Positions 332 through 60,494 of a DNA stretch of 64,000 nt are shown here, one piece after another (position 1 is the stretch's first letter; each line of letters begins with the position of its first letter). A program made the translations under genes and the position numbers. Source of the DNA: Styela clava (taxonomy: Eukaryota; Chordata; Ascidiacea; Stolidobranchia; Styelidae); NCBI RefSeq assembly GCF_964204865.1, contig NC_135259.1, positions 19,850,974-19,914,973 of the forward strand, in the 5' to 3' direction. The notes beneath the pieces are model-generated. The model saw only the letters and a list, made by a program, of their open reading frames with translations, was not told the origin of the DNA and made no database searches.

Positions 332-941
332 CTGTCTGATCATAAAAATATTAAAAGTGGCGAGTGCGACAATCATTGCCAAAAGTATTATTAAAGTCAC
401 CACTTCATTTCTGATCTTTGTGTTTTTGTTCTCTGAAAAGATATGAAATGCATAGGATATTGTAAGTATAATATCAAATATTCCTACAAATTTCACTGAA
501 AGTTTTCATTTTTCACAAAGTAACGGTACGTAATGTTCATCTCATCGAGAATTTTGTAAAAAAATGATGCAAGGCAGCTGTATGCATTTATTGAAGCATT
601 GAAAGATGTCGTAATCGCGACTACGTAAAACCTAAAATAAAAGTAAATATACCCTTACTCTATATGGCGTCTTTGCCTAGTGAAGGAATAAAACCTGACA
701 GACGCAGGAAGTCAAATACCCATACAAATTATAATGGAAATTTCAAATATTAGCGCTATGCTTTCATAATGTGAACGAATGACAGCTTATACCTAACTCC
801 TGAAATACCTTTGCGTTTCTTTGGTTGAACTTGAACACATGTCATTTCATAAACATTGTCATATGCTGGTAAAGTGTTGTTTTTATCCGGATTTGAATCA
901 TCCGGAATGTCACAGTAGAATTCTGTTTCAGCAGTAGACAT
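332..941 (-). CDS. Type II membrane protein, FIBCD1-like paralogue 1 (first two exons; rest beyond left edge)
   Basis: Two exons are visible. Exon 1 (809-941) starts at the ATG read down from 941 and encodes a 44-residue cytoplasmic segment with the tyrosine motif AYDNVYEMT. It ends AAAG|GTATTT in phase 1. Exon 2 (332-432) follows CTTTTCAG, encodes a short basic stretch and then a hydrophobic membrane span ([19 protein letters not shown]), and ends CAG|GTAAGT in phase 0. There is no signal peptide, so the N-terminus should be cytoplasmic (type II topology). Both exons match, exon for exon and in length (133 and 101 nt), those of the paralogue starting at 13469. The missing stalk and fibrinogen-related domain are inferred from that copy and should lie left of position 1. 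No disabling change is seen in the visible part. Confidence 0.8.
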
Positions 942-995
942 CTTGACAGGTCGGTCGGTTTTTCCAAACGACTCGTTCCAAATGTTCGATATCTT

Positions 996-1003
996 TTTTT
1001 ATA
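996..1003 (-). promoter_or_regulatory. TATA box of FIBCD1-like paralogue 1
   Basis: On the minus strand TATAAAAA lies about 55 bases upstream of the ATG at 941. The paralogue at 13469 has a TATA element at the same distance, which makes a core promoter more likely than chance in AT-rich DNA. Confidence 0.5.
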
Positions 1004-1489
1004 CAGGTATAACTGCGGTTTGATATTCTTTAGTCATGAGTAAATGCATTAGAGTGGTGTAATCACCTTATAGAACATAAAATGTCTTATAAGCATTTAA
1101 TAAACAAATAAGTTAGCATGTTGTGGGTGATATCTGTTACTCGTCTGTTTGGGACCATAATGTATTCCTGCATCTCAAATACTAACGAACAAGCACAAGA
1201 GTTGTCGATATCATTGTTGCCAAAATATATGACTACATGATTATTAGGTTATTAATGAGGGATTTGTGGGTGTCACAGAATCTGCGTCATCAATATTTTA
1301 TATGTTTTTTGGAATTACTCACTGTGTGGTCAATTAAATAGAATGAACATAGAATAAATTAAGTATGCATGTTTTGATAGGATTCCTAATATATGCACAA
1401 TCATCCAAAATGTTGAATCATTAGAATGTGGGATAATGGGCTTGTCTATTTCTACGCATATATTTATCGCATGATACATAAAACAGGTC

Positions 1490-1600
1490 TTATCGACTGG
1501 CGGTCCGACTCCGGACTTTTCGAGTATTCGATTCGGACTCTACCTAATTCTTTATTTTGGATCATTGGCCCCACTTTGGATATGTGGAGGTTTTCTTTAA
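1490..1600 (-). repeat. Fragment of a hAT-like element (tccggac/ggatcattggcccc family)
   Basis: The stretch with tccggacttttcgagtattc and ggatcattggcccc is the reverse complement of sequence at 10780-10870 and 32850-32960. It is a dispersed non-autonomous element of about 100 bases. No coding capacity. Confidence 0.5.
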
Positions 1601-1688
1601 TTAACTGACTTATATATTTTTAAAGATTATTTTATAGTTTCTTCATATTTGCACCTGAATATATATGGAACGAACGGTACGCCATAAT

Positions 1689-2167
1689 TTGGGTTACCAT
1701 ACGTCCCGATTTAAGCGGGGCAGTCCCACTTTTCGACGTCTTGTCCCGGCTTCCTGACCGGTCAGCCAGAAGTCCCGCTTTGGCGCTCAGCCAGTCAAAA
1801 TAATACACGAACATTACCAATTAGCAATTTTTCGAAACTGTTGTTGCTGTTTAACGTACCGGCAGCCTACTTACTGAAGGTGGATGCATGGTTTGATTGT
1901 TTCGTTGTTTTGATTGCTACAATTTTTTACGTGTAAGCCCCGTACGTCAAAGGGGTGCTTAACGTTAACGTAAGTTCCTTTATAATTTTCGAACTGAAAC
2001 CGATATTTAGACAGACAGCGCACAAACTCTCGATGACAATATGGACAACTAAGACAGCCGGGATGATTTTAAATGTAGGCCCCTAATGTAAAATCGGTAA
2101 ATTCAAAGTTTAAAAGATGGTCTTTGGAGGCGTCCCGCGTTGAGGTCACAAAAATATGGTAACCCTA
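1689..2167. mobile_element. Non-autonomous hAT-like element with 8-bp target-site duplication
   Basis: The ends are inverted repeats (TTGGGTTACCATA at the left, TGGTAACCCTA at the right), flanked by the direct 8-mer GCCATAAT at 1681-1688 and 2168-2175. An 8-bp duplication fits the hAT superfamily. Related copies lie at 8164-8636, 25815-26140 (truncated) and 37600-37732 (short form). No transposase is encoded. Confidence 0.75.
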
Positions 2168-4724: not shown

Positions 4725-5026
4725 TAGCGATTCTCAAACGGTGGTGCTCCCCACAAGGTGGGCGTAGACAATTTTTGAGGGGACGTGAAGCTAATTAAAA
4801 ATAAAAATATTTGTTAGATTTTATCTTGCCCTCCTTATTTTGGATATTTACATTTTTTTATTTTGGATATTTACATATCATCCCCGCATTTTTTGAATAA
4901 AACATACCTCGGCCTTACTATGTAATATTTGTAGCTTATTGTTAGCTAGTTATGTTTGAGGTGGGGCGCGAGACTTGGAAAAATTCTAAAAATGGGACGT
5001 GGCTTAAAAAGTTTGAGAACCACTGA
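4725..5026. mobile_element. Non-autonomous hAT-like element (TTCTCAAACGG...GTTTGAGAACCACTG)
   Basis: Inverted ends resembling TTCTCAAA and TTTGAGAACCACTG bound about 300 bases. The inside holds two copies of ttattttggatatttacat in a row. It belongs to the family seen at 15205-15470, 30708-30928 and 59256-59551, with half-copies at 3860-3975, 21590-21720, 22272-22460 and 28940-29103. At this copy no clear target-site duplication is visible. Confidence 0.65.
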
Positions 5027-6186: not shown

Positions 6187-9100
6187 TTATGGTCTCTTCC
6201 GTAATTTCATCTCACTGAACTTCAGAGATTGGCGATTTAATATCCAGGAATTCCAATTAACGGATCGTGCACTATCTCGCCCGCCCTGGTAATATATCCC
6301 ATTCAAGTTCGAGGAAAAACACTTATTGTACCACCAAGCCCCACTGTAATTGATTGCGCAGCTACTGGGATATTTGTCATTGTCAGAATCTTTCGTACTA
6401 AACTGCATATTGTTATGATACGTCAATGAATCACCGGCTGTTCCAGAATATTCTCCAACTAACAATGTATAATTTTCGCTTGCAGATGAGATTGAAAAAT
6501 TCCTGGAATAAAAAAATCTCAACCATATTGATGATACAAATGCACGTTGCCGTGTGAATCGGCGTAGCGGGATTTTATAACATATGACTCAAATTATGCA
6601 AAGGTGTACAGGAATCTTCAATTTTTCATCAATGAATATGATTGCACTATGAAGAAACGAGAAATACTACGATGATGGAATCACAACGTATATTCAAAAT
6701 TTAATCGACGGGGATGAATCCATATGCAATCATTGTCTATTTATAACGGCAAATTAAATTTTATTACTTACCCATATTTAGCATATACAGTGTTTCCATT
6801 AAAATCTTCCAAATCAACTCTTAGTTCGTAACTTCCGTTTTTAGTCAGTTGATGGATTGTTTCCAACCCTGAATGTGTTGAATGAACACAGTTGAATTAC
6901 TGAGAGCATGCATGAAGTCAAGCGGGTTGTAATATTCGAAGATTGTTCATGATTCGCAAACTTCAATTATATGTGAATGAACAACACTTCAGGACACTGT
7001 GTGTAATCTTCTGAATATGCTGCTATATCCTATTAGTAATTGTAATCTAATTACATACCTAATCTAAGGCACTGCGCCAAAAAAATCTGTAGCCGTCTGA
7101 CACAATATATTATTGATTGGACATTTTGTTCGTTTTTTTTTCTGATGTTGAAATGAGCTTCACATACCTAGCCAAATTTCTTTATCTGTTTCTCCGAAAC
7201 CATCAACATAGTCATTCCAGCCTCTGTAAAAGTTTTCTGTTCCGTCCATTCGCCTTTGAAAGACCTTAGAAATATTTAATATGCATATTCTAATTTGCAT
7301 AATATTCCGCTAGGCTGCCTTTTGCTTGTTTGTTACTTTTCAATATTAAAAGTGTTTCTGTTTCTAATGAATAACCAATCCGAAATGTTGAGTCTTGTTA
7401 TCCAACAAGTACTGTACAATAAACGAACCATAACATTATCCGCAAAATGTTATTGAAGTAGATAATATGTTTCGGTCATGGACTCATGGCCAACCAAGTC
7501 AATTGAAAAATTTCCAGTGCTTGTTATATACCAAGGGGTAGTTGAGTAAATGTAACATACTGTCCATCCACCTCCATCGGTTTCGAGGTCGCAATAGACT
7601 TCAACAGGTTTGTAATCTGATACCGGATATATATCAGACTCCACCGGTGGTGTTTCGACTTTTTGCATAGGAACGATTCACAGTCCTGCAATCCTTCGGG
7701 AAACCTGTTGAAAAGTGAAAAAGTTACATAGTATTGCAACGGCTGAATCATCATAATTACTTCGTGTGTCAATGTGACTGTGTGCTAGTGATAAAAAAAA
7801 AAAATCTTAAAGTTATGAACACCAAATACATCCGTCTTCGATGTAAAAGATTCTATACTTTATAAAATTATACATAGCAGATATCAGTTATCCCCAGCAA
7901 ACCTTTAGCGTCATTTCTACAATATATGCCCATAATTTTAAATTGAATTTTCAAAATATATTCTGATGTAATACTCAACCTACGTTCGTTTATTGCCAAT
8001 ATCTTCAATTGTTGGTGAGAACGATTCAGACTTGACACATCTTGAATACATTGATTTAATCGGATTTGTTGTTCATTAAATTTGGACTGAAATGCCTCTG
8101 AATCTGTAACAAACTCGTAATATTTTGATACATTATAGCAGTGATTCCGATTTTGGGTATTCCCAGGGTTACCATGATGTGATCAAAGACCAAAGCTGTG
8201 ATTTTTTCAACTTTAAATTTACCGATTTTACATTAGGGGCCTACATTTGAAACCATCCAGTCTGTTTTCATTGACCATATTGTCATTGAGAGTTCAGGCG
8301 CTGTCTGTCTAAATATCGATTTCAGTTCGAAAAATAGAAAGGAATTTACGTTAACGTTAAGCACCCTTTTGGCGTACGGGGTTTACACGTAACAAATTGT
8401 GGCAAATATCCGCTAACAAAACAACGACACAAACAAAACCACGCATCCACATTCAGTGAGTAGGCCCGTACGCCGCACAGCATCGAAAACATGCTAATTG
8501 GTAATGATCGTGTATTATGCTGACTGGCTGAACGCCAAAGCGGGACTTGTGGCTGACCGGTCGGGACGCCGGGACAAGACGTTGAAAAGTGGGACTGTCC
8601 CGCCTAAAACGGGACGTGTGGTGAGCCTAGGACCTAGGTATTCCTAATACGTTCGATAGTAAATACGAGCTATGGACATTCACTTCAAAGCTTAACCTGA
8701 AGATCTGAAATCATCAAAACCACTGATTTTTATTTCAGTGCACTAACTACGAATGACTGACATATAGTTGAATCATCAGCAAAACGTGTTCCCTAATTCT
8801 ACAATATTGGCACTCAAACTATGGTTAATATTTTGGGAATCATCTCCCATTTAATATGTAACCTACCTTGTCTCTCAGATGTCACCAATTGTTGGTGAGA
8901 ACTATTCAAACTTGAAATGTCTTCTACAGATCGATTTATTTGGTTTTGCTGTGCATTAAGTTTGGAATAAATCACTTCAGCGTCTGTAAAAATTACAATC
9001 TGCGATTATATCTCAATTCCAATATCAGGAAAAGATTACAGGCTTAGTGGAGTGATCTCACATTGTGATTATTTTCAGATATGGCATGGGCGCTATTGCT

Positions 9101-12100
9101 AACCAAATTGGATTTTCACAAATTTATATAATATGGGGGGTCCATAAAGTCCTAAACATTTTTTTAAGTTGGAAAGTTTAAGTTGGAAAAAAAAATTAAT
9201 TTATCGATACCATATATTGTTTTGGCCCTCACAGATGTATCAAATGAAGTAAAAATACTTGAAATCAAAATTGAATAAAAACCAACAAACCTTAAGATAT
9301 ATTGAGCACGACTTCATAACAAATTGAAATTGTAAAGGTACTTCATGGACACCCCATATAGCACTACGTGCCGTCATTACTGTACTTATACTCAGTAGTT
9401 GATTTATGGAATGCGCGGAAACCAATACTGGTTACTCATATTGGTTAGTAAGGTAAGGATTCAAACTATTCACGAATATTCCATGTATTTTCAAAACAGT
9501 TTTTAACGCGAAAACATGTTCAGAACATTACCGAGATATAAAAATAGGCAAATCTACTGCGCGACATTTTTTGCAGATGGCTGGTTGTATAAGCAAATTA
9601 TTTGGAACGTTGCAAGTTGCTGAACAGAATGATTCATGGAGTTTTCTAGTGTTCGCGACACATCGTCAAAATATTTATTGAATTGTCCCGCCAGTTTTGA
9701 ATACATATCAGACCCTGTGAAAAACGCAAATTTACGTTGGCATTTGTATCAGACAACAATGTCACATGCTGCATGTCGACAAACAAAATCTTTGCCTCGG
9801 TGGTGTAGCGCATCCATCAATGCGTTAGGGATACGCTTGCCACCGTACCTCTGATTAACCTGCGTGGGTTCGCAGGTTCGAATCACATACGGGGATGGCT
9901 ATGTGCGAGTGGGTTGCTGGACTCCTCGTCGGTCGGTTACGGATTCCGAAAACAAACAAATACTTGGCTAACTAATCCCATACCCGACTTGGACTGGTAT
10001 TCGGACGAGAGATCATAGTTAGCTATATGATTATAAACCGTCTTATAGGCTACCCTTTCATCCAGGATAAATATGTAAATCCTATCATTGTTGCGTATGT
10101 TAGCCAGTTCAAGCTCATAATTAGAAGCATGGTCAAGACTATATTTATGAAAATCGACTACGAATCTTATGGCCTCAAACAAGTAACGCTAGATCTGTGT
10201 AAATACCAGCCATGGTAGCGTAGAAAATAAAATTTTTCATTTCGCAAATGTTTTTTATTTAGGCTCAATAACCCTGAACTAATACCAATGAGATTGATCG
10301 TATTCGCATGCGTCAACTAAGGCGCCGAGATCTACAAATAGGATTTTATCTTTGCAAATATTCCAGAATTACCACACGCTTTAATACAGTCTCTACTTAT
10401 TATATATATCTAATTCAAATTGTGCAAGATTTTGATGTTTCTAAATATAATATATTCTGTTACCTAGCTTCTGGGAACGATTCAGATACAAAATGGTTTT
10501 CATGGTGTTGTTGAGTTGAGATTCATGTCCAGTCAGTTGTGTGTACAAGGAATCGAAATCTGCTATAATATTTGAAATTAGTAACTTCAAAACAATTCGT
10601 GTCAAAATTATTTGGGTCTGGTCCTTCCAGAAATGATATTTCGGCATCCCTAAACGAGCACTTCCTCGACCGACTAATGATTAGTAGCAAATTAAAATTG
10701 TTTATTATGGTGTTATAGTTCTTTTCGTATATATTCAAAACTATGAAAGTCATTTTATAATAGGAAATTCAAAAAATGGGGCTAATGATCCAAAATAAAT
10801 AATTAGGTGCGGTCCAAATCCAATACTCGAAAGGTCCGGATCCGGACCGCGGTCTGCCAGTTGAGTAGCCCTGCCCTATACTTCAAGACAATCTACTTGG
10901 TATTCGAACTAATGTTTCTTTTAGATTTATGAACTCTCGCAGTGCAAAATTTATAGACTTATTAGGTATTCAAAATAATGTTTTTTCAAGATTTATGAAC
11001 CATCGCAAAGTAAAATTGATAGACAAAGTGATAGACTTGGTTTACCTCTTGTTTTCTGGTCATAAAATTGCTCAATGGAAGAATTGTCCTGTTGAGTCTG
11101 CTTCATTCCCATTATTTCGTTCTGCATCTGTTTAAAATGGGGCAATTTTTGTGAATTTATTAAGTTTTTTTACAATTGTTAAAAATCATTTTATTTTATG
11201 GCGCGAGTTAACAACACCATACTACATTGGGGTCTAGTCCGATATTCAGTTGAGTGAGACCTATAGGTGCATTCTTTAAACTTCGTACAGAGTGAAGTTT
11301 ACGAGTACGTAACAATGTCTCTAAATGCAATAGTGATTCATTGTACGTGTAATTCATGAAATATCTCATAAACACTTGACGCACGGTCACGTACATCCTC
11401 TCGAAATCTCACGCACGGCCACATACATTCTCTCGAAATCTTAGGCACGATCGACGTTGAACAGAACCACTTCTTGGTCACTCAACCGTATCGCTTGTGG
11501 CCTGGAACCTGGCGAAACGTAAAATTATGGCGAAGCGGGTCTGGTATAGTTTAGTACCACATGCACTTCTAGTTGGCCTGGCTCAACTATTTTTGCATAT
11601 GTCAATCCTAACCTCTACCTGACTACGTCACCGAAAAATTACGTCATTTCGACGACACAGTGGCGTAATAAGGCCCACCAAAGTATGCGGAAGGTAGTCC
11701 AAAACGCGCAGACGATCATCCGAAATCGAGCAAGCTATTTCTCTCGTTTTTTCGTCACAACGATCCCAATGGACCTTTCCCCGACCTTTGACCCCCGGAA
11801 AATTCTTTCTATACTTTACCATTGCAACATTTTCGGGGCTATTTTAAGAGTGCTTTTTCGAGTTGGCGCCTGTAAAATGGGGTATGTATTTCAAACCATC
11901 ATTATGATTCATCGCATACAACAATCTGTTTTTTAAAAGTACCGGTAAAGAATTTCAGGCTAGTCTATCACAGCTATTTCTACACTAATTTTTATTACTG
12001 CAATTAAATTAAAACTCCTAGGAAGACAGAGTGATCATTGAATTATCTGATTTTTATTTAAGTTTCCGAAACACAACTCAAAATTAACGAATAGAGTTCA

Positions 12101-13469
12101 AAAACGCGAAAACGAGGTAATGTTTACAACCGCGCTTGAAAATCTGTCTGAGTGAGAAAAGTGTCTGAGCGGATGCGAAAAGGGGGCATTGTTACGTCAC
12201 TTTTTGCATCTTACTGATTGGCCAAGGTCACGAAGTAAACAAGGAAGTCGATGCTCGGGGAAAGGTCCATAGGAGAGAGATCGCCGGCGTTAGCGAGTTC
12301 GTTATCAGCGGCGCAGATGCCATTTTGGGCGATCGTAATTATACTTTGACAAACGCTATGACGTGATGATGACGTCGTAGTGACGTAATTTTTGGATGGC
12401 ATAGTCAGGTGGGGGTTAGGAATAACATATGCAAAATTCGTTATGCTATGCCTACTGGAAGTACTTGTGGTACCAAACTATACTAGACCCGGCGAAGCTA
12501 ACAGCAAGGCTTCAGCCATTCATAATCAACCAAAATTTTCACTAATAGACATTCTGATGTTTTACTGGTAGATTTTTTTATCACAATAGGGCACCGATGA
12601 GAAATATCACGTTATCGAGTCTTTTTCGGACGAATTTCCCTCCCAATGTGGTCACCACACGTCTAATACGTCCCCACACGCTACAAATAAGAAAAAAAGC
12701 ATTAAAAAATAATGTGATACCAAGACTCTGAGGGGCAATAGGTATCGGTTTCGTCGGACAGAGTCCCGCAAATCGTACTATGCCCTGATAAAGATAGACC
12801 AATAAAAATACAAAACCTATTACTGTTCCATTAAATATTAGCTGTATTCCACTTACCTGTCTGATCATAACAATATTAAAAGTGGCGAGTGCGACAATCA
12901 TTGCCAAAAGTATTATTAAAGTTATCACTTCATTTCTGATCTTTGTGTTTCTGCTCTCTGAAAAGATTTGAAATGTATTGTAAGAATAATGTCAAATATT
13001 CCGACAAATTTTACTTAGTTTTCCATTTTTTACAAAGTAAAACATGAAAAATAAACGGTATGCAATGTTTATCTCTTTTAGAATTTTGTAAAAATATGAT
13101 GCAAGGCAACAATATGCATTTATCAAAACATTGAAATATGCCGGAAACGAGACTACATAACCGAAACCTAAAATAAAAGTCAAAATACCCTTGCTCTATG
13201 GCGCCTCTGCTTCCATAAAATGAATATAAATGACATAGCTAATAAACGAGCAAGAAGTCATAATGGAAGTTTTAAAAATTGAACACCGCCTTCATAGAGT
13301 GAACGTATGACATCTTATAAATAATTCCTGAAATACCTTTGCGCTTCTTTGGTTGAACTTGAACACACGTCATTTCATAAACGTTGTCATACGTTGGTAA
13401 AGTGTTGTTTCTTTCTGGATTTGGATTATCTGGAATGTCACAGTAAAATTCTGTCTCAGCCGTAGACAT
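6187..13469 (-). CDS. FIBCD1-like type II membrane protein with fibrinogen-related domain (paralogue 2, frameshifted)
   Basis: Ten exons read on the minus strand: 13337-13469, 12857-12957, 11046-11127, 10464-10562, 8867-8983, 7984-8103, 7561-7704, 7168-7264, 6772-6868, 6187-6502. All junctions are GT-AG and phases agree except at one exon. Exon 1 is a cytoplasmic tail with TYDNVYEMT, exon 2 a membrane span, and exons 3-6 a Gln/Asn-rich coiled-coil stalk in which exons 4-6 are similar phase 1-1 units ([20 protein letters not shown]). Exons 7-10 encode a complete fibrinogen-related domain: [37 protein letters not shown], a Ca-site-like KDSDNDKY, the Cys pair around [15 protein letters not shown], and a [10 protein letters not shown] end. 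Exon 7 is 144 nt where its phases need 146; a 2-base loss near 7631-7640 splits the domain between two frames. About 435 residues are expected without it. FIBCD1 and ficolins bind acetylated ligands; binding here is inference. Confidence 0.83.
8164..8636. mobile_element. Non-autonomous hAT-like element inside an intron of FIBCD1-like paralogue 2
   Basis: Begins CAGGGTTACCAT and is flanked by the direct repeat GGTATTCC at 8156-8163 and 8637-8644. The interior matches 1689-2167 in inverted orientation. It sits in the intron between exons 5 and 6. Confidence 0.7.
9794..10087 (+). repeat. tRNA-derived SINE
   Basis: The head has a B-box-like GGTTCGAATCA after a GGTGTAGCGC A-box region. A conserved body follows (ACTAATCCCATACCCGAC), then the tail AAATATGTAAATCCTATC. 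The same layout recurs at 29588-29880 (+), 37118-37450 (-), 50457-50760 (-), 58622-58800 (+, body only) and 62745-62882 (-), with a shorter piece near 52505-52600 (-). It lies in an intron and is antisense to the gene. Confidence 0.75.
11537..12490. mobile_element. Foldback element with long terminal inverted repeats
   Basis: About 250 bases at 11537-11790 reappear as an imperfect reverse complement at 12245-12490. Shared landmarks are gggtctggtatagtttagta against gggtctagtatagtttggta, TTTTGCATATGT, and ATGGACCTTTCCCCGA. The arms are rich in TGACGT/ACGTCA. The interior has no credible coding sequence. It lies in intron 2 of FIBCD1-like paralogue 2. Confidence 0.65.
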
Positions 13470-13523
13470 CTTGACTGGTCGCTCGATTCTCGCAAACGAT
13501 TCTTCCAGATGATTAAAATCTAA

Positions 13524-13530
13524 TTTTATA
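13524..13530 (-). promoter_or_regulatory. TATA box of FIBCD1-like paralogue 2
   Basis: TATAAAA on the minus strand lies 55 bases upstream of the ATG at 13469, the same distance as in paralogue 1. Transcription would then start around 13497 with a 5' UTR of about 30 bases. Confidence 0.5.
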
Positions 13531-13531
13531 C

Positions 13532-16500
13532 AGCTATAACTGTGGTGTAATATTCCGTAGTCATGTGATGAGTAAATGCATTTAAGCAGAATATTCAACT
13601 CATCAAACATAACATGTCTTATAAGCATTTAATAAACAAATAAGTTAGGATGTTGTGAGTGGTATATGTTACTCGTCAGTTCGGAACAAAAATGTATTCC
13701 TGCATCTCAAATACTAACGAACAAGCACAAGATTGTAGTCAAAATATATGACTGTATGGGTATTAAGTCATTAACGAGGAATTTGTGAGTGTTTACAAAA
13801 ATTGTGTCATCAATGTTTTAGTTGTTTTTTGGAATTACTCACTGTTTGATCAATTAAATAGAGGTAACATAGAATTTAATAGGTATGCATGTTTTGATAG
13901 CATTCCTAATCGATGAGTAATCATTAAATATGTTTGAGTCAGTGGAATGTTCAGTTGGTTCTTGTCTATTTCAACGTAGATATTTATCGCATAACAAACA
14001 AAGTTTGTGATTAAATATTCATGTCTTCGTACCGCGCTGGTGATTGGGATTTGTACCGACACAAATTTTTTACGGTCCGATACCTACAAAAAGGTGACGA
14101 TACCGATATTTCGAATTTCCGACAAACCAATATTATGCATTTAGCATTGTTTTTGAGAGTACCGGACGTGCTGAATATTATTTACAGTAAACATTATTTC
14201 ATCTAGAAGAACAGAGTCATCACAGAACACAAAAACACACAACTTTAAATACGTGATTCAAATGCATAATAACTGAACTCACTATGGCTTATTAAAACGC
14301 TTGAATTAATTGCATTTAACGTTGGTTATGCAAAGATATACCAAGTTATACTTCATTATATTCTAGAAGAAATCAAAGAGTTGAATATATCGGAAACACT
14401 GATCCAGACTCATACATTTATCGATATCGACAAAATGGTGGATATTGCCGATACGCCACGCTCACTAGAAGCTATTGTGGTACGAAACTTACGTAGAGCC
14501 ACATAATTTTGATGACGTCATAGCGAAAAAAAAGTTTACCACTAAAAATTTCAAAGCAATTTGTCCAGTAATCAAAAAGAAAAGCGATTTCTTCAAAACG
14601 TGTCAAAGAACAACAAGACTAAGAACAACAAAACGATCGCTATGTCCACTACGTGTCCAACTAGCCCCTGGCAGCAGAAATTCTTGGCATGTCGCTGGTC
14701 TGACATGGGCCAGGGTGTTTGTTTTATCATCGTAGCAGACAAGAATTGTCTTGACCGAATATACTCAATAATATTGTGTATTATTCCACGATCAGTCACG
14801 GAAATTTTTATCTGTGAAAATATTACCATTTTTATTTCGATTTTAATAAAAATGTACTGTATTCAAGACACGACTATAAAGTCCTAAGCTAAGGTATTGA
14901 ATTAGAAATACATTTAACCCGATGTCAAAAACTCCCATAATGATTCATAACGCATCATATCCTTTCTTTGTTCTGTGCGAAAGCAGACATTCATGTCTTG
15001 CGATATTGTCATAATGCTTCGAATACTAGAAATGAAAACGCCCTATACGTCGATAGAATCTTATAGGTGGTTGGACACTCGCTCTTTATAATACGGCTTG
15101 ATGGAGATTTCATTAGATGCGTCAGTTTAGAGAGAAATGCATAAATTTGCTTCGGTATGCGGTCTCAGTGTCGTAAAACTATGCTGTTACCTGATCTCAC
15201 TCGCAACGGTGGGGCGCACCGCACGTATACAATTATTTGAGGGGGCGTGAAGCGAATTATAAATAGGAATATTAGTTAGATTTGAACTTGCTTGCCCTTT
15301 TTGGATATTCATATATCTTTATTGTTTAGAGATTGTAGGGAGCTGTTGTGCTTGTTTTCATTATCTGTTATATTACTTTTGCCTTACTATCTGTCATTTG
15401 TATCTTATTGTCAGCTAGGTATTTTTAAAGTGTAGTGCGAGACTTGACAAATTCTAAAAAGGGGGAGACCGTTAACTGATATCTCAGGTAAAAATCATCT
15501 TTATAATGTACAATTTCTTCAAAAATGATTACGTCATCGCAAATTTATCTCCTGTGGCGTTTAATTCAAAAGAATATCTCACTAACTGTCTTGGTAAGGA
15601 CCCAATAAATGTGAAAAATAATAAGTATCAAGATTGCTGATTATTGAAATGTGACAATGATAAATTCAGTATTAGTTTTCGGCGTCATCCAACAAGTGCG
15701 CGGTTGATGCTGTTATTCTTTTTGATATCTCAGAGTAGAATTTGCATGTCGAACACTGAAAATTTTTCACATAAATTGCATTTAATAACGGGTTCGGATT
15801 TTACTGAAATACTTCAATATGTCCTACCCACGCTGAATATTCCGTTGTGAATAATTTTGAGCGAACCATTATGGCGTAACAAGCTAAAATTATACATTAT
15901 TGCGTCAAACGTCACGATGCGGTTAACCAGTTAATTTTACCCGGTTAACGGGTTAAAGGGTTTTTCCTGAATTTCCCAGCCCTAATAGCGATACATTTGT
16001 TTGAAAATGACTTATTCTGAGTCATCAATTGAAACAAGTGGTTAGACATTGTTACTATGTTACCGTTAAAAAGCTTTGCAAGCACAAGAAGACTAGAGGG
16101 TCAAATAAGGTTTAAAACATGACTAATAGTTTCAGATATTCCTATACGACGCTTATTCAAACCGTCTGCTCCAAACACGGTTGTATAGGCGTAGCGAGGA
16201 AGAGGTCATGTCCGGAATTTTTTTTTGCGGCATTTGCAATAAGACATAAATTCATACGCTTTTTCCAACCGCGATTTTGCTCTATTGTTGCAGAATTTAC
16301 TGAAAATCGAACGTTTCCTGGCTTAATATTAATAATCCTCTCAAATGAACCAAACGAGATAGATATATGCCTGAGTTAACTTCGACAGCAAAGTAAGTCT
16401 GTAGAACGGTTCTTCAAGATATTGTTAGACAATATCAGTGGCTACAAAAACGTTTCAGTAATAAATCAGGCATGTGTTGGACTTCAAAGATAAAAATTTT

Positions 16501-17581: not shown

Positions 17582-17605
17582 TGGAAAAAAAGAGAACACA
17601 TGACA

Positions 17606-20600
17606 ATGACGGCGAAAGTGGAAACTATCTTGATTGTATTAATACTTGTGGTTTTCTGTCTTAAACAAGGTAATGAGAAGTTTATTTTTTCACCATATAC
17701 TGAGTATTGAAGTTATTTAATTCACATGTACTGGCATTAATTATAAAACTCAATTTCGTTCGTTAACTTTAGAATTAACTGGTGGAAAACCATGATTTGT
17801 TCACCGCAATTATCTACAGGTAGAATACATATATATTTACATAATTTCTAATAGTTTAAGCGGCGATTTTGTCCTCCAAAAATGAATAACTGCTGTCCTA
17901 ACGTTATTCCTGAATTTTGCTAAGATTTTAAGTCGAAATCACAATTATGTGCCGGCGAAAGGTCCATGGGCATTTTCGTTGAACTCTTCCAAATCAAAAT
18001 AAGCCACTAAAAAGCCATCTTAATTTTTTTATTCAAATGTTCTCTGAATCCTATGCTATTCGTTATTCACAATTTCCGTTTTATTTACATTAAATATAAA
18101 CACTTTTTTTGTCACCCTCCTATCAGTTAAGGTCTTCCCGCACCGGTCCATATATTTGAGCATTGCTCTCTATTTCGATAATTAAATCCGAACCGGAAAG
18201 TATTACGCCCTCAGATACCAATATATAACTTCTTTCCTCAAGATCAAATATTACACCGCAGTCAAATATAAAAAAAGTGGCGTTTTGTATGACAATATTG
18301 ATCAAATAAAGGCATTGAGTCGTTTGATAAACTATTCTGTGTTTTTTAAGCTGTTAAATACGTGACCCGTGTCATACATATGATAAAGCCAAGAATTTAT
18401 AACAACAAAAATCAGGATATTATTTCACATATATATAAAGTCATATAATCCATAACATTTATGTATAGTTCGATCATGCTCTTTTGTTGCTATTTTGATT
18501 TAAATTGCGAATGTCGCTCGAACGTGTGTGTTCATAGTGACTATTTCAAAAGATACTTGGTTGCAGGAATGTCTGGAACCGTGGAAAGCAAGTGTTATCT
18601 TTCTGAGGAAGAGAGAAGACCAGAGGGCCAAAGTGGCAAATTTCGGATAACCGCTTTTCCCGAAGAATTCCCAAAGACGTGCATCTGGGAACCACAGTTC
18701 AATGCCTCGTCAAGCTACTTTTTGCGTATATGTGGGCGGCAATTGCGAGACGTGCAATGCCCTACGACTAACTGTACAATAACGCCAGTAGAATCAATAC
18801 ATGACGGTAAGTAAATGTAAACGCCTAATCTTGATAAAATTGCGTCGTTTTGAATTTATAGGGTTCCAAAAGTTCTAACAGCTCTACCTGCGAGCCCTAC
18901 AGTAAATGACCCAAGAAAGAAATTTTTGAAAATTAACGTCGATGCGACTCGACTCGTCACACGGGTTTCGCTAGTACAGACCAGGGTTTCGCAGGTTCAC
19001 ATTTAAATTGAAGAGTCTACGTCAGGTGTGTGCAACCTGCGGCACACAGAGAAAATTGTGCGGCCCGTGAAGAAGTGCCAATTTTAAATGGCCTGCGAAA
19101 TGATTTTTCAATTCAGTTTAATCTAGTACGTGCGAGTAATTCTAATCCCTCTGCGTCGAAAAGCCTGTACCCTGAGTCCAATTTATTATCTATGCCTATG
19201 ACGTTACAATGTCTCAACAGCTAACTTGTGCGAAGCGAACAACACATGTCATAAAATCAATAATCGAAACTTTTGTGTCTATAACTACTAGGAAGGCCTA
19301 TCTTAAATACAGGTGCCGCCCGCGATTTCACCCAGTTATTTGTTTCTGGCCCTACTGTAATAAAGGTTGCACAACTCTGGGCTACGTTATTGTTCTTATT
19401 TTCTCAGATATAATCAATATAATATATTGAACCTGTCGTTAGTGAATTCGATTCAAAAGAGTCTTCAAATATTGAAACTCTTTCTCCTATTCGCTGGTAG
19501 TTCAGGTTCTCCTCTTCCGCAAGTCGATTAGTTTGGGTGAGGGCGTATGAAAAAATTTCATTTTATTATTTGAAAACAACATGTACATATTGATCGTTTG
19601 GTAAATTGGATTGATGAAAAAAAACGCATTGAATTTTTTTTTTTATTGTATCGGTTCCTCCAGACATGGAATCCATCACCCAGTTAGTACGCTGAGCGTC
19701 CAAACACAAATTCAAAAACATGTTTTAGCAATTGATAACTAGGAAAAACTTTTCATACGTACAAATTGCATTGCAAATATATGACTTCAATACACAAAAT
19801 CATAGGTTTCATCTCGACCCTTGGCGAACAGAAAAAAAAACAAGATGGCGGCAGTTCGAAATTTTCGTCGACCGATCTTTTCAGCAAACTTAGTGTTTAG
19901 TTGGCAGCCTGGACTTTACCGCTACCGATGCGCGACTTTCGTGTCCATATGTTTGAGAATTTCTCACTTGTTGCAGGTTCCGCAGCAGGTTCCAGTGTTG
20001 ATCCAACTTGTTTTGTTTTAACAACTGACGACTGTTATGTGCCGGGCTCCGGAAACCGGAAAATGGTTTCCTCTTTGCCTACGAGTATAAAATTAACTAT
20101 GAAAATAGATCTTGGCATTGAATCATTTAAGTACAGTTATTCAAAATGCGACAATGAAGGTAAAACAAAATTAAACTTGTTTTTCATAGCACTAAGATTG
20201 AAAAATTTATTTTCAGGTTTCGATAATCTAGAACTTTTTCCAAGCCTATCTTGTGATCTCAGTCTTCGTAATTATTATTTATATCTAATGAAGTTTTTCA
20301 TGAGTCGGTGGGTAACGGCAGCAGTGCTTTAACTATAATTACCGTTTCTTTCAATCAGATAGTATAACCCTGGATGTCGCTGCTCTAACCAGATCTGTTT
20401 ACGCGCGGCTTCCATTTCCAAAAGACTGTACAATTATCTTTTAGTTTCGAATATTGTACATGATTGATTTTCACTGATAGGAAAAAAATAAACTTGGCTG
20501 GGAGCTACTTAACGGCCATCTCACTGATTTATATAACAGGGCCAGAACCACCAACTACCCAAGTGCAGTCAACCTATGAGGCGACGAGCATGCCTCAACC

Positions 20601-21527
20601 GACGAATTATATTCAAAATACTCGTGATTCAACAAAAAGTGTACCAAGCACTCCCATCCCCATTTCAGCATCAACTCCGCCGGAAACACACTGGTCCGAT
20701 ACAACTACGTACAATCTTTCTGTGACGACTCACACTTCTCAGCAAGGCAGTAATACTTTGATTAGCACGATACTTCCAATTGTAATCGCCGTAGTCGTGG
20801 CCGCATTGCTGGGAGGACTTCTGTTTATTTGGTGTCGCTACAGGCAAGTACATGATAACACATTATTTTGAATAACTTGATCACAGGTGCTTATGCAGTT
20901 TGTTGAGGGAAATAACTTAGACACGTAGAACCAAGTTTATTCTTCGTCCTGCTCTAGGGAAACCATTCCCGAAGTCAGGTTTGCAAATTGCTTTCTACAG
21001 TTGGGTTCGGAGTCGCATTTAAAAGCTTCCAGGATAGCTATGCCTGCGGAGTTCGGCATTACAAATAATGTGTAATGATCGTCGAAACGCCGACTAACGT
21101 TACTGTAAACAAATATTTATTTCCCCGCAGCGGCATATCCAATAAAATAAATAAATAATTTGAAGGTATTAGTCGTTTTAATAAGACATTAGATTGATTA
21201 GAACCTGGTGCAAATGGTTGAGCATTTGTAGCAGAAATTGATTTCATCAAACTAATGAAAAATAATAAATCGCAAATGGACCAACATGTATGTATTTCTA
21301 AATTCTTCAACAATAATCACGATTAACAACACGTAATTGAATACTTAATTTTTAGGAAGAAAAAACAAAAATCGTCAGTTGGAAGTGAACAAGCTACTCA
21401 TAGAACAGGCGATGAAAGACACATGACTGAAAATGTGATTTACGAGAGTTCTTCTCCACACACAAATGATAATCAACCTGCAGCAATGATGGTTGATAAT
21501 ATCATTTATGGGCAGACGATCGTGTAA
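17606..21527 (+). CDS. Type I membrane receptor A, CUB-like ectodomain and tyrosine-motif tail
   Basis: Five exons: 17606-17669, 18567-18806, 19977-20159, 20540-20843, 21356-21527; 320 residues, all phases consistent. Exon 1 is a signal peptide (ILIVLILVVFCLKQ). Exons 2 and 3 are phase 1-1 and together encode about 140 residues with paired cysteines, N-glycosylation sites (NASS, NCT) and an ending SIKLTMKIDL...FKYSYSKC. The ending and the exon phases look like a divergent CUB domain, but I do not recognise it with certainty. Exon 4 is a Thr/Ser/Pro-rich stalk and a membrane span (ILPIVIAVVVAALLGGLLFI). Exon 5 is the tail, with ENVIYESS and DNIIYGQ and the C-terminus QTIV (class I PDZ ligand pattern). 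Intron 4 starts GC, not GT (AG|GCAAGT). An earlier ATG at 17600 exists, but the paralogue's start aligns with 17606. No ligand or pathway is shown by the sequence; a surface recognition role is inference. Confidence 0.8.
19028..19390. repeat. hAT-like remnant in receptor A intron 2
   Basis: Ends gtgtgcaacctgcggcac and ggttgcacaactctgggc are roughly inverted, and the interior has gcggcccgtgaag. This resembles the GGGTGGGCAACC-type non-autonomous elements at 24577-24870, 35424-35690 and 38345-38640. It contains no exon. Confidence 0.45.
20844..20849 (+). promoter_or_regulatory. Tandem GC/GT splice donor, receptor A intron 4
   Basis: Using AG|GCAAGT (GC at 20844-20845) keeps frame with exon 5. 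A GT four bases later (20848-20849) would add GCAA and shift frame into an early stop. Receptor B has the same arrangement at 30298-30303. Confidence 0.7.
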
Positions 21528-21529
21528 TA

Positions 21530-22965
21530 CTTAGAAAGACAGGCAATAAAAACTGAAACTTGCCTTTGAGCCAAACACAGTTATTTAGAACAGTGGTTAT
21601 CAAACGGTTAGGGGACATAAAGCTAGTTAAAAATAAAACTTGTTAGATTCAATCTTGCCCGCCTTGTTTTGGATATTCACATTTCTTTATTTTGGATATT
21701 TACGTTTAGTATATTTAAGTTCCATCCACGTATTTTCAACTTGTTTTTCTTATTCGTAATTTCTTATGAAACTCTGTAACAAATTAATCTCTATTTATCT
21801 ATTAACAGAAAGTATATATGAATTACCAAAAGTTTCACTGATTTCGCTTTCCTGGGAAATATGAATTATGGCTGTGCCTTCATTTTAGATATCGCTCTTT
21901 GTCGCCTCATTGTGGTGCATTATAATTGTGCAAGTTTATTTCTTGTATGCGCCCTTTCGGGTTTTTGTCGAGTTAAGTGACGAAGTCTATTATTATCCTG
22001 TTATATTATTGATTTCCCGCGCAGTTGATATTGTATTTTTATTACGCAAACAATTTTGTGGCAAATTTGATTCCATATATATTTTTAGGATTTTGATTGT
22101 TCACCGCCTGCATAAAATGAACTTCCTTTGCGAGACTTATTTGAAAGTCGACCTCGCCTATTTACGCAAACTAGTATGTCCCGTTGACAACATAGTAGTG
22201 AGAACTTATATACTTAGAAAGACAGGCAATAAAAACTAAAGCTTGCCGTTGAGCCAAACATAGTTACTTAGAACAGTGTTTCTCAAACGGTTAGGGGACG
22301 TAAAGCTAATTAAAAATAAAAGTTTTGTTGGATTCGATCTTGCCCGCCTTGTTTTGGATATTTCCATTTTTTTTATTTTGAATTTTTACGTTTCATTTTC
22401 AACGTGTTTTTCAAATAAAACATACTTTAAGTATAGCATATACCCTAAGTTTAGTATATTTAAGTTCCATCAACTTGTTTTTTTTATTCGTAATTTCTTA
22501 TGAAACTCTGTAACAAATTAATCTCTATTTATCTATTAACAGGAAGTATATATGAATTACCAAAAGTTTCACTGATTTCGCTTTCCTGGGAAATGTGAAT
22601 AATGGCTGTGCCTTAATTTTAGTTATCGCTCTTTGTCGCCTCATTGTGGTGCATTATAATTGTGCAAGTTTATCTCTTGTATGCGCCCTTTCGAATTTTT
22701 GTCGAGTTAAGTGACGAGGTCTATTATTATCCTGTTATATTATTGATTTCCCGTGCAGTTGATATTGTATTTTAATCACGCAAACAATTTTGTGGCAAAT
22801 TTGATTCCATATAATTGTTTAGGATTTTTGGCGTTCACCGCTTGCATAAAGTGAACTTCCTTTGCGAGACCTATTTGAAAGTCGACTCTGCCTATTACGA
22901 AACTAGTATGTCCCGTTGATGACATAGTAGTGAGAACTCGTCGCCGTAATTTTGCATTAGATGAA
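21530..22965. repeat. Tandem duplication of receptor A 3' flank (about 680-base unit)
   Basis: Two direct copies start with cttagaaagacaggcaataa (about 21531 and 22212) and run through a half hAT-like element, a shared stretch taatttcttatgaaactctg, and cgctctttgtcgcctcattg. Copy 2 ends near 22965. The first unit begins four bases after the receptor A stop codon and includes an AATAAA at 21545, so it probably holds the 3' UTR. Receptor B's 3' flank (31110-31320) matches one unit. Confidence 0.75.
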
Positions 22966-23712: not shown

Positions 23713-23799
23713 CAAATTGTTTTACCTGAGCCGTGGACAACAACACGACTAGGGGTCGAAATTTAGTAGTTGTTGTTCGTTGAATTAACTAAAAATGCT

Positions 23800-25814: not shown

Positions 25815-26140
25815 CCCAAGCTCAATATTGGTTTCAGTTTCAAAAATAAAAAGGAATCCACGTTAACATTAAGCACCCCCTTGGCGTAAGGGCCTTACAC
25901 GTAGAAAATTGTAGCAATTATCCGCTATAAAACAACGAAACAAACTAAACCACACATCCACCTTCAGTAAGTAAGCTACCGGTACGCTACGATAATATAC
26001 TAATTAATAATGTTCGTGTAATATGCTGGCTGGCTGAACGCCAAAGTGGGGATTTTGGGTGACCGGTCGGGTCGCCGGGAGAAGACGTTGAAAAGTGGGA
26101 CAGTCCCGCCTAAAACCGGGCATATGTTAAGCCTAGATAT
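25815..26140. repeat. Truncated copy of the TTACCAT hAT-like family
   Basis: Carries cgttaacattaagcacccc, gctggctggctgaacgccaa and gtgaccggtcggg, as in 8300-8620. The terminal inverted repeat at the left is missing. Confidence 0.55.
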
Positions 26141-26837
26141 AAGAGGCCATTGATCTTAAACAATATGTAAAAAGATACCAATATTCGGAAGGACCGGAAT
26201 TTTACCGATTCGGCGTTGCCCCCCGCACCCAATTTATTTCAGCCTATGAGTGTCATGTCACGCGCCAGGGTGATTGCTTTAAATATACAATGGGTGTGTA
26301 AGGATTGAATGCCTAACTACGGAATGAACCACTGTTTAATATTTTCTTGGATTTAAATTTTTAAGCATAACAGATTCGTTTTGTTGGAACTTCACACTCC
26401 TCGAACAACACTGTAGTCGGAGTTCTACTTTAACAGAAATTGATCCAGGCTTGTTATAATTGTTTCCAAACGTGATTTTGCCTTCTAAGAGACGGGAACT
26501 GAATTTGGAGTCCAAATATTTAACAACTCAAAATCGTGTCATGTGTCAGAATTCAAAGATAGAAATATTTGAACTGCAGTGAGTGCTGTTGTCCAGTACG
26601 TATGAAAGATGGCAGCTTTCAAAGAGCAGCATTCAAAGTGAACTCGAATCAAAAATTATTTATAATTCCCAATTTTATGAGTTTGAAGAGCGAAATCTCA
26701 TGCAGGGTGGGCCAGGAGTAACAGTTATGTAACTATTAAATAATAAATTAATTTAACAGTAATGTTAATCTACTTCTAACCCACCCTGGTATATTACAAT
26801 ACGGAATAAATGTTACGATAGGAAGCAATTTTTTTAT

Positions 26838-26932
26838 TAGATTTTATATATAAGATAGAACTACTTCTGGTCCACCCTGTAAAATCGCAGTGTGTACTTA
26901 TATAGGTAGTTCTATCTTATATATAAAATCTA
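26838..26932. repeat. Perfect 27-bp inverted repeat upstream of receptor B
   Basis: The arm at 26838-26864 is the exact reverse complement of 26906-26932, with a 41-base spacer. It ends two to three dozen bases before the receptor B ATG (26961) and overlaps the candidate acceptor AG at 26932-26933. Confidence 0.85.
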
Positions 26933-28551
26933 GTTGAAAAATTATGAACGCATCACTGTGATGGCTACTAAAGTAAAAATTATGTTCATATTCTTGATAC
27001 TTGTGATCTACAGTCTTAAACAAGGTAAACCAGTCAGTCTATTTCTTCGTTTTAAAGTTAATTAATCTAATTACTATATAAAGTTTCATGCACTCGCATA
27101 AATTATAGGACACAATTTCGTTCGGTAACTTTTGAATTCACTGCGGAGAAACCGTGCGTTGTTGCCCGCAACTAAATTCCGCGTGAATACATGAAAACGT
27201 ACACATATTTTTAATAGTAACACCCAGGCGTTCAACCAGTGATTTTGTTCTTATGAAAGGGGGATGATTATGCTTCACTAATGTTATTCCTGAATTTTGC
27301 TAAGATTTAAGTTAAAGTTCGTTACACTGTTCCAAAACAACTTTTTTTACAAAGTTTGTGAATTAATGTAACGCGATGTTGGAGAAGCGAATTTTACTAC
27401 GTACGGAGAGATTCGAAAACCTTCATAAACTTATTAGATATTTGCTACTCGTTATTCACAAAAAAATCGTTTAATTTTAATCAAAAAAGGACACTTTTTT
27501 CATCACGCTCTTCCGACGATATTTTCTGTGAGCTGGGGTCTCAGCTAGGACCTTATCGCACGGGTACCTATGCGCGATTTTCGTGTCTATATAAACGAGC
27601 ATTTCTCTCTATTTCGATAATGAAATCAAAAGCGGAAGTGAGGCTGGGCACATCGAATATCAAATTATTCAAATTAATTTGGACGAAAATTTGGAATTAT
27701 CGCCGTCTAGTTTTTTTTGTCCGCCAAAGGCCGATTTGAAACCCTCAACTTTTATATTGAAGCCATATTTTTAAAAGTCAATTCTGACGAGAGGCCCATA
27801 ATATCTGATTCCAATTGTGGAAGTAGTGTTGAACGTGTAATACTGGAAATATTTCAAAGAGGAAATGTTTGTTTGCAGGAATTTCTGGAAACGTAAGAAG
27901 TAAGTGTCATCTTTCTGAAAATGAAAGAAAACCAAAGGGCAAAAGTGGCATGTTTCGGATAAACACGCTTAAAGAATTTCCAAAGACGTGCACTTGGGAA
28001 ACACAATTCAACGCCTCGTCCGGATATTCCTTGCGTATTTGTGGTTTGTGTGTGAACGTGAAATACAACGTAACTGATTGTCATTTAACACCAAAAGCAG
28101 ATCCAGGTAAGAAAACTTAAGTACCCAATGTAGATAAAATTAAATTCGTTTTTGCCTGTTTATTGAGGTTTCAACTACATCGACTCCAAGACATTTATCA
28201 AACCATCCAAGGTTTATGTGAACTTTTGAAAATAAATTCAAAGTCAACTTCAGACTTTGTAATTGAGATTCCGGACCCGCTGTTTAATGCCTAATTAACT
28301 GTTTGAATTACAAGTTGATTTTTGTTCGCCTTAAACTCTAGACGACTGTAACAAATGGGTACCACAGCTGACAACTAGCGATATATTTGGCGTTTCGAAA
28401 GTAATGTACTAGATTTATGTTCTTAACCTGTTCTTCAAATTTTTAATCCCGTCTCTTCTATTCGGTGATCGCTTAGGTCTTCTCCACCGGAAATTGATTT
28501 GATCAAGTTAGGGTTTGTAACATTGCTTGAGGCAAGCGTATGAAAAAAACG

Positions 28552-28764
28552 GTGTTCCAGAAGTATGTGTACCAGGATGGGGGTAACTAATTTTGTTCGC
28601 CTACTTTACATCAAGTTGTTTAAAGGGACGGAAGCCTTTGGACGGGGGATATATTCAATTAGCTAACACAGACAGTCTCCGAACTCGTAATAGAACTAAA
28701 ATATAGAAAATCGAAATAAAATTATGGCCTAATCTTAACTCGGTCCACATACTACGGGAGTAAC
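28552..28764. mobile_element. Non-autonomous element in receptor B intron 2
   Basis: Contains cagaagtatgtgtaccagga at the left and cacatactacgggagtaa at the right, like the copy at 52152-52371. Its interior agrees over caagttgtttaaagggacgg and gtctccgaactcgtaataga. Confidence 0.6.
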
Positions 28765-28939
28765 AAAAATCTTGTTTTCATCATTTGTAAACATGGATCG
28801 CTTGCTTAATGTCGTTGGTGTGATTGCTGTTTCTTTTTCCTGCATTTCAAATATACAGTTCTTGAAGATGAATGGAGTCACTAAAGAGCTTTTTTTAATT
28901 TTCGGAGACCCGATATTTTGCTCCAAGTTTTGATTGCCA

Positions 28940-29103
28940 TTCTATTCACGTATTTTCAACGTGTTTTCTTATATAAAACATACTTTTGCCTTACTATCTG
29001 TTATTTATAGCTTATTGCCAGCTAGTTATTTTTGAGGTGGGACGCGAGACTTGACAATTTCTAAAAATGGGGCGCGGCTTGAAAAGTTTGAGAAGCACTG
29101 CAT
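28940..29103. repeat. Right half of a hAT-like element in receptor B intron 2
   Basis: Has the family's right part (tttttgaggtgggacgcgag, then gtttgagaagcactg) but no left end. It stops 38 bases before receptor B exon 3. Confidence 0.6.
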
Positions 29104-29587
29104 TAGACTCTAATTATTTGAGAATTGCGATCTTGTTTCAGGTTGCGATGATGATTCCTTTTGCTTTGTTTTCACGACTGGATGTTTCTCCAGCAGTCAT
29201 GTGGGCGTGGTTGACCGGATAAAAGTTTCGTCTTTGCCGAAGAATATAAGTTTAACTATGTATGAATATATCGATATTGAGGCAATAAATTACAGTTATT
29301 CAAAATGCGACACTGAAGGTAAAAATTAAATTTATTTCTCATAGCACTAAGATTAAAGAATTTATTTTTGGATTTCAATAATCTAAAACTTTCTCGCCTC
29401 GTCTATCTCGTGATCTGATGCTCTGTAATAAATATTTATAGCTAGTAAGCAATGTTTCATAAGTCGGCAAAAGCACACCATACTCGCCTACAATAACAGT
29501 AGTTGTGTAACTAAAATTCCTGATATTTCCAATACATATAAGAGCCTTGAGTGTTACAGCTGGACACCCAGATTTGATTCCGGCGCG

Positions 29588-29880
29588 GCGGTGTGGCTTA
29601 TCGTGCAAAGCGTTAGGGGTACGCTTGACACCGCACTTCTGTTTACTCTGCATGGGTTTGCAGGTTCGATTCCCATGCGGTGATACCGTAGTTATGTGTG
29701 AGAGGATTGCTGGACTCCACGTCGCCGTAGGGTGGTTCACGTAAGCGCTGGTCGGGGACGGCTTCGTCCACCATCAGGTCCACGCTTCGAAAAACAAATA
29801 ACTAACTAATACCATATCCGACATGGAATGGTCCCTATCCCCGCGGCTTCGCTTGCGCAGTATAACGGTGTACTATTCTC
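29588..29880 (+). repeat. tRNA-derived SINE in receptor B intron 3
   Basis: B box GGTTCGATTCC, followed by the family body including tagggtggttcacgtaagcg and actaactaataccatatccg. Same family as 9794-10087. Confidence 0.75.
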
Positions 29881-30707
29881 TCTATTCCAAAATTTGTATT
29901 TGATTGACTTTTTACTGCATGGAAAAAACTTGGCATGACTCGCAGCTTCTCAACGGTTGTTTTAACTATTTACATAATTAACTGGGCCAGAACCACAAAC
30001 TACTCAAGTGCAATTAACCTATGAGACAACGAGCGCGCCCTAATACGAAGCAACGGATTATATTCAAAATGCACATGGTTCAACAAGAAGTAAACCGAGC
30101 ACAAATATATACGTTCCAGGGCCAACTTCGCCGAAAACACACTGGACCGATACAGCTACAAACGCTTATAACATGACGACTCACACCCACACTTCTCAGG
30201 GCAAAAATGCTTCGCTGGGCACAATACTCCCAATTGTAATTGCCGTGGTCGTAGCCGTATTGCTGGGAGGACTTTTGTTCGTTTGGTGCCGCTTCAGGCA
30301 AGTAGAAAAATTATTTAGATTAACTTGATCACAGGCTCCCATGTAATTATGTTGGGTGAAATATCTTCAATGAAAGTGCCTCAAGTTCAAATCTCAACAC
30401 TGCGCAGCTCGAGAGATATATCCCCAAGATCAGGGTCGCAAAATCAGTTCCCGTCATATTGATAAACAGACTTCTGGAGCACCCATACTCCTACAATTCC
30501 AACGTAATTAAATACTTTATTTTTAGGAAGAAAATACAAAATTTGTCAGCCAAAAGTACACCAAGCCCAGAGAGAACAGATGGTGAAAACACCATGACCG
30601 AAAATGTAATCTACGAGAGTTCGTTTCCACACACAAATGATAATGAACCTGCAGCAATGCTGGTTGACAATATCATTTATGGACAGACGGTTGTGTAATA
30701 CTTAGAA

Positions 30708-33275: not shown

Positions 33276-33393
33276 AATACAGTCGTTTATCTAAAATCTA
33301 GAGTCGTAACTCTAACTCTATTTTTATCTATTAATAATACTGACGTTCCATTAGCTTTATCGACTAAATGGCATTGATAAGTAAACATACCCA

Positions 33394-60465: not shown

Positions 60466-60494
60466 AGTTTAAAGATAATTAGAATAAGAAAACC

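Follow-up and report, generated by a model that had tools for sequence, protein, structure and literature searches.

Does the close linkage of lectin-like and receptor-like genes in a tunicate genome mark a joint recognition system, or an array of lectin genes that lies by chance beside an unrelated receptor family? We addressed this question in a 64,000-nucleotide stretch of the Styela clava genome (contig NC_135259.1, here C13; C13:19850974-19914973), referred to throughout as the window; coordinates without a contig name are positions within it. The window contains two minus-strand genes, G13 and G14, for type II membrane proteins with a fibrinogen-related domain (FReD), and two plus-strand genes, receptors A and B, for proteins that are type I by sequence, which bears out the opposite topologies described in an earlier note on this DNA. 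In our view, a tandem birth-and-death array of FIBCD1-like, membrane-anchored lectins probably ends in the window, where it adjoins an unrelated two-copy family of type I receptors. The earlier note had proposed the region as a candidate recognition locus. That proposal is reasonable for the FReD array, given its local expansion, broken copies and pocket-focused divergence, but it is unsupported for a pairing of FReDs with receptors, which is a possibility suggested by their proximity.

Extent and architecture of the FReD array

Exons of both families were mapped by tblastn over 255 kb of C13, with the right edge at C13:19954973, and the mapped FReD exons were grouped by us into units according to strand and order; genome-wide searches covered 376.6 Mb in 379 contigs. 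A search for mitochondrial COX1 returned no match, and a GH6 exon agrees with a tunicate origin of the genome. On this map G13 and G14 are the right-hand end of an array of 14 FIBCD1-like type II units extending over 146 kb (C13:19718910-19864442). All 14 lie to the left of both receptors, and the map shows no FReD exon between window position 13469 and the right edge of the mapped stretch. The gene order in the window is FReD (G13), FReD (G14), receptor A, receptor B, and the interleaving of the two families proposed previously was rejected on the basis of this map, in which the receptors flank the array. Similarly, the statement that each family is present in two copies applies to the receptors but not to the FReDs, as G13 and G14 are two of the 14 members of the array. 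Their exons in the window are as follows.

809..941, minus strand: G13 first coding exon, cytoplasmic tail ending ...YDNVYEM (exon map and splice check)
332..432, minus strand: G13 transmembrane exon (exon map and splice check)
13337..13469, minus strand: first coding exon of G14, encoding a cytoplasmic tail that has two tyrosine motifs
12857..12957, minus strand: G14 transmembrane exon
11046..11127, minus strand: G14 coiled-coil exon
10464..10559, minus strand: G14 coiled-coil exon
8867..8983, minus strand: G14 coiled-coil exon
7984..8103, minus strand: G14 coiled-coil exon
7561..7704, minus strand: G14 FReD exon 1, with a 2-nt deletion relative to paralogues and a TGA right after ...NTTGGV (residue 239)
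7168..7264, minus strand: G14 FReD exon 2
6772..6867, minus strand: G14 FReD exon 3 (acceptor position +/-1 nt)
6187..6502, minus strand: G14 FReD exon 4, which covers the calcium site and the S1-pocket region and includes the stop codon

Both genes have the type II layout, in which an N-terminal cytoplasmic exon and a transmembrane exon are followed by coiled-coil exons and then by the FReD; the coiled-coil and FReD exons of G13 lie outside the window, to its left (C13:19845667-19849496). Over the mapped 255 kb, the cytoplasmic exon was detected in seven and the transmembrane exon in four of the 14 units, and the four FReD exons are in frame in seven units other than G14. When its frameshift is bridged in the query, the FReD of G14 matches Pfam Fibrinogen_C at an expectation value (E) of 4.4e-74, and its best match among solved structures is human FIBCD1 (4m7f, E 2.7e-66).

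Fibrinogen_C has at least 161 matches genome-wide, counted at the level of exons. The cytoplasmic exon of the subfamily has eight at E <=10, seven of them in the C13 array and one on contig C17, where it belongs to a unit with cytoplasmic, coiled-coil and four FReD exons. Two tyrosines, of the types FY-x-[DE] and [NS]-[IV]-Y, are kept in seven of these eight cytoplasmic tails (e.g. 13337-13469). Within the parts of eight other FReD loci that were searched, FReD exons are present and the cytoplasmic exon of the subfamily is unmatched at E up to 0.5. One of the eight, L032, also gave weak receptor-like matches (stalk E 0.012, tail E 0.035), which we take as chance because searching the whole genome with the tail did not return them at E up to 0.1.

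The array includes broken copies. A stop, frameshift or missing exon was found in six of the 14 units (G02, G03, G04, G06, G08 and G14), G01 has no first FReD exon in the 255-kb map, and FReD exon 3 of G10 has an unusual acceptor. In G14, FReD exon 1 is two bases short, while it is in frame in all ten other units compared (with GGVFDIYP in eight, GGVFYIYP in G12 and an in-frame 6-base loss in G06); the reading frame of G14 is therefore 239 residues long and stops where the FReD begins. It is possible that this two-base deficit is an assembly error. The head-to-head pair described previously has its start codons exactly at 13469 (G14) and 17606 (receptor A), ~4.1 kb apart, but its FReD member, frameshifted relative to ten paralogues, does not look like an intact gene.

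Elsewhere in the genome, FReD matches at C19:5.33-6.08 Mb recur every ~77-102 kb with equal or near-equal scores, in up to eight blocks, which suggests either a repeat in the assembly or recent tandem amplicons of large size. The FReD of the locus L007 (C10:15222492) retains a SYADGVEW stretch, as in human FIBCD1, that the C13 array has lost. Within the window, copies of a repeat that are 76-88% identical occur at 1691-2120, 8201-8627 and 25821-26133, one of them between exons of G14.

Divergence of the ligand pocket

Divergence among the FReD heads is concentrated in the ligand pocket, whereas the cysteines and the calcium site are conserved. The last FReD exon was aligned for 11 of the 14 units, leaving out G01 and G02 (divergent) and G08 (last exon missing). 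In FIBCD1 numbering, Asp393, Asp395, Cys401, Cys414, Trp409, Trp410 and Trp437 are invariant in all 11 exons, and among the most variable columns are 396-399, 404, 405, 413, 415, 416, 426, 429, 430, 432, 433, 436, 438, 439, 443 and 444. The pocket was represented by 11 codons. Nine are published FIBCD1 contacts, drawn from sections of the structural reports on its acetyl-pocket and extension residues (PMC3908420, PMC10825690), and two, the flanks 430 and 432 of Tyr431, are our own choice, made because Tyr431 has no counterpart here. This literature-based set replaced a first set of 19 codons (omega 1.37 in 11 units and 1.34 in nine), which was discarded because it had been picked after viewing the variability.

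The proportions of amino-acid-changing (pN) and synonymous (pS) differences per site, and their ratio omega, were obtained by a simple pairwise count. In nine units (G03 and G04 being dropped as well, for stops), omega is 1.16 at the pocket vs 0.24 in the rest of the exon, pN is 2.6-fold higher at the pocket, and the observed pocket pN was reached by 6 of 20000 random codon sets and by none of 102 circular shifts. A rerun with G06 and G14, which have lesions elsewhere, also dropped left seven units that are lesion-free in the sense that none of their four FReD exons is missing or has a stop or frameshift, splice sites not being judged singly. In these seven, pocket omega is 0.94 vs 0.24 (13 of 20000 random sets, 1 of 102 shifts), and with the C17 unit added it is 0.90 vs 0.23 (9 of 20000, 1 of 102). 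Amino-acid-changing differences per site are 2.4-2.6 times higher at the pocket, and omega is about four to five times higher.

Several observations weigh against reading the array as a set of diversifying FIBCD1-like lectins. Only seven of the 14 units (G05, G07 and G09-G13) have four lesion-free FReD exons. The highly variable positions 416, 426, 436, 438 and 439 are not named as FIBCD1 contacts in the sections of the structural reports drawn on, and the positions of Lys381, His382 and Arg412 show little variation. In all 11 exons FIBCD1 Tyr431 lies opposite a gap, in an alignment that is ambiguous near 431, and Trp443 is replaced, so that FIBCD1-style acetyl binding may have been lost; Tyr405 is kept in four and His415 in three of the exons, and none of the 11 has all four acetyl-pocket residues. 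Sliding windows of 11 codons all have omega below 1 (maximum 0.79), and synonymous sites are already divergent for a simple pairwise count (pS ~0.4-0.5). Pocket omega shows no clear excess over 1, and at values near 1 relaxed constraint is not separable from positive selection.

Under the array reading, intact members would reside in the plasma membrane as type II proteins, presumably oligomerised through their coiled coils, and would expose a fibrinogen-like head that binds calcium and differs between copies in its ligand pocket, with signalling or endocytosis perhaps proceeding through the conserved cytoplasmic tyrosines. Such proteins would most likely recognise varied surface glycans or acetylated groups, whether microbial or self, and may do so on blood cells or epithelia. 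The receptors next to the array would be signalling-type proteins produced by tandem duplication, and any functional link between them and the FReDs is conjectural. The array offers concrete candidate proteins and residues for the analysis of lectin diversification. If it were true that the FReDs and receptors act together, they would constitute a new recognition system; at present the locus is a useful, not a startling, case of lectin diversification.

The receptor family

Receptor A comprises five in-phase exons (17606-21527, plus strand) encoding 320 residues, and receptor B comprises five exons with in-phase splice sites (26961-30698, plus strand), ending at precisely the stop position given in the earlier note.

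17606..17669, plus strand: receptor A exon 1, signal-peptide-like by eye
18567..18806, plus strand: receptor A exon 2, first part of the ectodomain
19977..20159, plus strand: receptor A exon 3, second part of the ectodomain
20540..20843, plus strand: receptor A exon 4, which by eye encodes the Ser/Thr-rich stalk and the transmembrane helix and is followed by a GC donor
21356..21527, plus strand: receptor A exon 5, encoding the cytoplasmic tail and its motifs ENVIYESS and DNIIYGQT
26961..27024, plus strand: receptor B exon 1
27879..28106, plus strand: receptor B exon 2
29142..29318, plus strand: receptor B exon 3
30120..30297, plus strand: receptor B exon 4, from the downstream acceptor
30527..30698, plus strand: receptor B exon 5, tail

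From its N-terminus, receptor A has a signal-peptide-like start and an ectodomain of ~140 residues; a stalk rich in Ser and Thr leads to a single transmembrane helix, and the tail carries the two tyrosine motifs listed above. The ectodomains contain eight (A) and nine (B) cysteines, seven of which are common to both. At the exon start homologous to that of A (29985), receptor B no longer has the AG acceptor on which A relies, and an in-frame TAA follows; splicing to the acceptor at 30120 gives an intact frame of 272 residues, in which the stalk is shorter. The transmembrane exon is followed by a GC donor, not GT, in both receptors (20844 and 30298), and the GC-AG intron is therefore probably older than the duplication.

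Genome-wide receptor searches were made with the tail (E up to 0.1) and exon 2 (E up to 10), and each returned two matches, both at this locus. Between A and B, omega is 0.33 for the signal, 0.40 for exon 2, 0.62 for exon 3, 0.44 for the stalk and transmembrane helix and 0.49 for the tail, with a value of 0.27 in the distal tail. Judged from their sequences, the receptors are a constrained, signalling-type family that, by tail and exon 2, occurs in this genome at the present locus only, and this orphan family is a candidate lineage-specific signalling receptor.

The earlier description of the receptors as CUB-like was rejected at the sequence level. Pfam gave no CUB match to the receptors, with one sub-threshold match to GBD_Hemicentin (E 0.24), and six weak matches to receptor A, none above the cut-off. 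A profile of the two receptor sequences searched against the PDB returned nothing at E up to 10, and profile-profile comparison with eight solved CUB domains gave a chance score, 31 of 60 column shuffles scoring at least as high as the real alignment and the reversed alignment scoring higher. Furthermore, a genome-wide search for CUB domains, in which 150 of the 350 candidates were scored, listed 150 matches, and none of them falls at the receptor locus. These tests are weak because the receptor profile consists of two sequences, and a highly diverged CUB fold is possible in the ectodomain, where the C...C-x-W spacing recalls, by eye, a CUB half-domain. Immunoreceptor tyrosine-based inhibitory and activation motifs (ITIM/ITAM) have a tyrosine with Leu, Ile or Val at +3; in both receptor copies the tail motifs YESS and YGQT have Ser or Thr at this position.

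Just 3' of receptor A, 21527-22900 contains a local tandem duplication with an offset of ~683-734 bp and 85-96% identity.

Relationship between the two families

A likely account of the locus, and one compatible with the array reading, is that the FReD array and an unrelated orphan receptor are adjacent by chance, each having been duplicated locally. The receptors flank the array and are not interspersed in it, and with so many Fibrinogen_C matches genome-wide the presence of a nearby FReD is unremarkable. The 5' ends of G13 (60-1472) and G14 (12587-13992) align at ~79% and lie 12.5 kb apart, vs 9.2-9.4 kb between corresponding exons of receptors A and B and 9.1 kb between their flanking matches, and from these alignments G13/G14 and receptors A/B look like two tandem duplications. 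However, this account is judged from a single genome, and a stretch of 90 bases that occurs at three places only in the 255 kb, 5' of G13 (3174), of G14 (14889) and of receptor B (23994), indicates that the flanks of both families share some history. The idea, derived from shared flanks, that a since lost receptor once lay between G13 and G14 was dropped because the piece at 4763-4996 is a dispersed repeat with copies in several places in the 255 kb.

That the locus is decaying, with receptor B and the part of the array inside the window consisting mostly of pseudogenes, appears unlikely to us. The frameshift of G14, the lost acceptor and in-frame TAA of receptor B, the lesions in six of the 14 units and the undetected first FReD exon of G01 would all fit such decay, but receptor A is open, half of the FReD units are lesion-free, receptor B regains an intact frame via a downstream in-phase acceptor, and the distal tail is conserved between A and B.

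The remaining account, in which the array FReDs would serve the type I receptors as ligands or co-receptors and be kept together with them by selection in the style of allorecognition or self-incompatibility systems, could draw on the tight linkage, on the receptor tail and exon 2 matching only here, on the seven of eight FReD cytoplasmic-exon matches that lie in the C13 array and on the tyrosine motifs retained in the tails of both families, but we judge it very improbable, since the adjacent FReD gene G14 is frameshifted, the receptors are constrained (A/B omega 0.33-0.62) and the FReD pockets diverge where a matched pair would be expected to co-diversify, the 10 kb read at the C17 unit contain receptor-exon matches at chance level only (E 0.06-0.1), and a single locus places linkage beyond statistical test. 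We are equally sceptical of a germ-line tunicate module of 'many sensors, one signaller', in which lectins with diversified pockets would capture or present ligands and the constrained receptor pair would read the complex via its tyrosine tail; a literature search, which was not exhaustive, found no description of such a module.

Comparison with known systems

FIBCD1, in the published excerpts drawn on, has a short cytoplasmic tail, a single transmembrane segment, a coiled coil and a C-terminal FReD. The array units share this layout, FIBCD1 is the best solved match, and Asp393, Asp395 and the Cys401/Cys414 pair are conserved; they differ from it in forming a tandem array, in not conserving Tyr431 and Trp443 and in the variability of Tyr405 and His415. 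The expansion itself recalls the FReD/FREP families of snail, mosquito and fly, which the excerpts used here tie to immunity. In the same partial sources, snail FREPs carry one or two immunoglobulin superfamily (IgSF) domains, whereas the C13 array encodes coiled-coil membrane proteins of type II topology.

The earlier note had compared the locus to the s-Themis/v-Themis pairs of Ciona, also a tunicate, and both cases do have a fibrinogen-domain gene near an oppositely oriented gene for a cell-surface protein. In Ciona, the fibrinogen gene is nested within the first intron of its partner, which is polycystin-1-like (REJ, GPS and LH2 domains, with a PKD channel in the B type), and encodes a vitelline-coat protein. 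Here, in contrast, the FReD proteins are type II, the starts of the two genes are ~4.1 kb apart and the first intron of receptor A (17670-18566) has no FReD-exon match at E <=0.01. No REJ, GPS, LH2 or PKD-channel domain is among the Pfam matches of receptor A, which agrees with the caveat in the note that the receptor is not PKD1-like. As the neighbouring FReD is, in addition, frameshifted and the receptors lack a divergence like that of the FReD pockets, the analogy is not sustained.

We know of no FReD array at the Botryllus fuhc locus. The available portion of the published account describes fuhc as encoding two highly polymorphic proteins (PMC3691228), and its likeness to the present case is that of a tunicate recognition locus, with no sequence comparison behind it.

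Other genes in the window

Long single open reading frames on the plus strand encode an EamA-family transporter (55794-57053) and MUS81 (60483-61931). Another, at 63381-63980 (+), encodes an acid-phosphatase-family protein that is presumably MDP1-like. Closer to the receptors, a single-exon homeobox gene at 33368-34453 (+) has a homeodomain match at E 6.1e-21 and an eh1-like FTIDALLG motif, and we take it to resemble the notochord homeobox gene Not.

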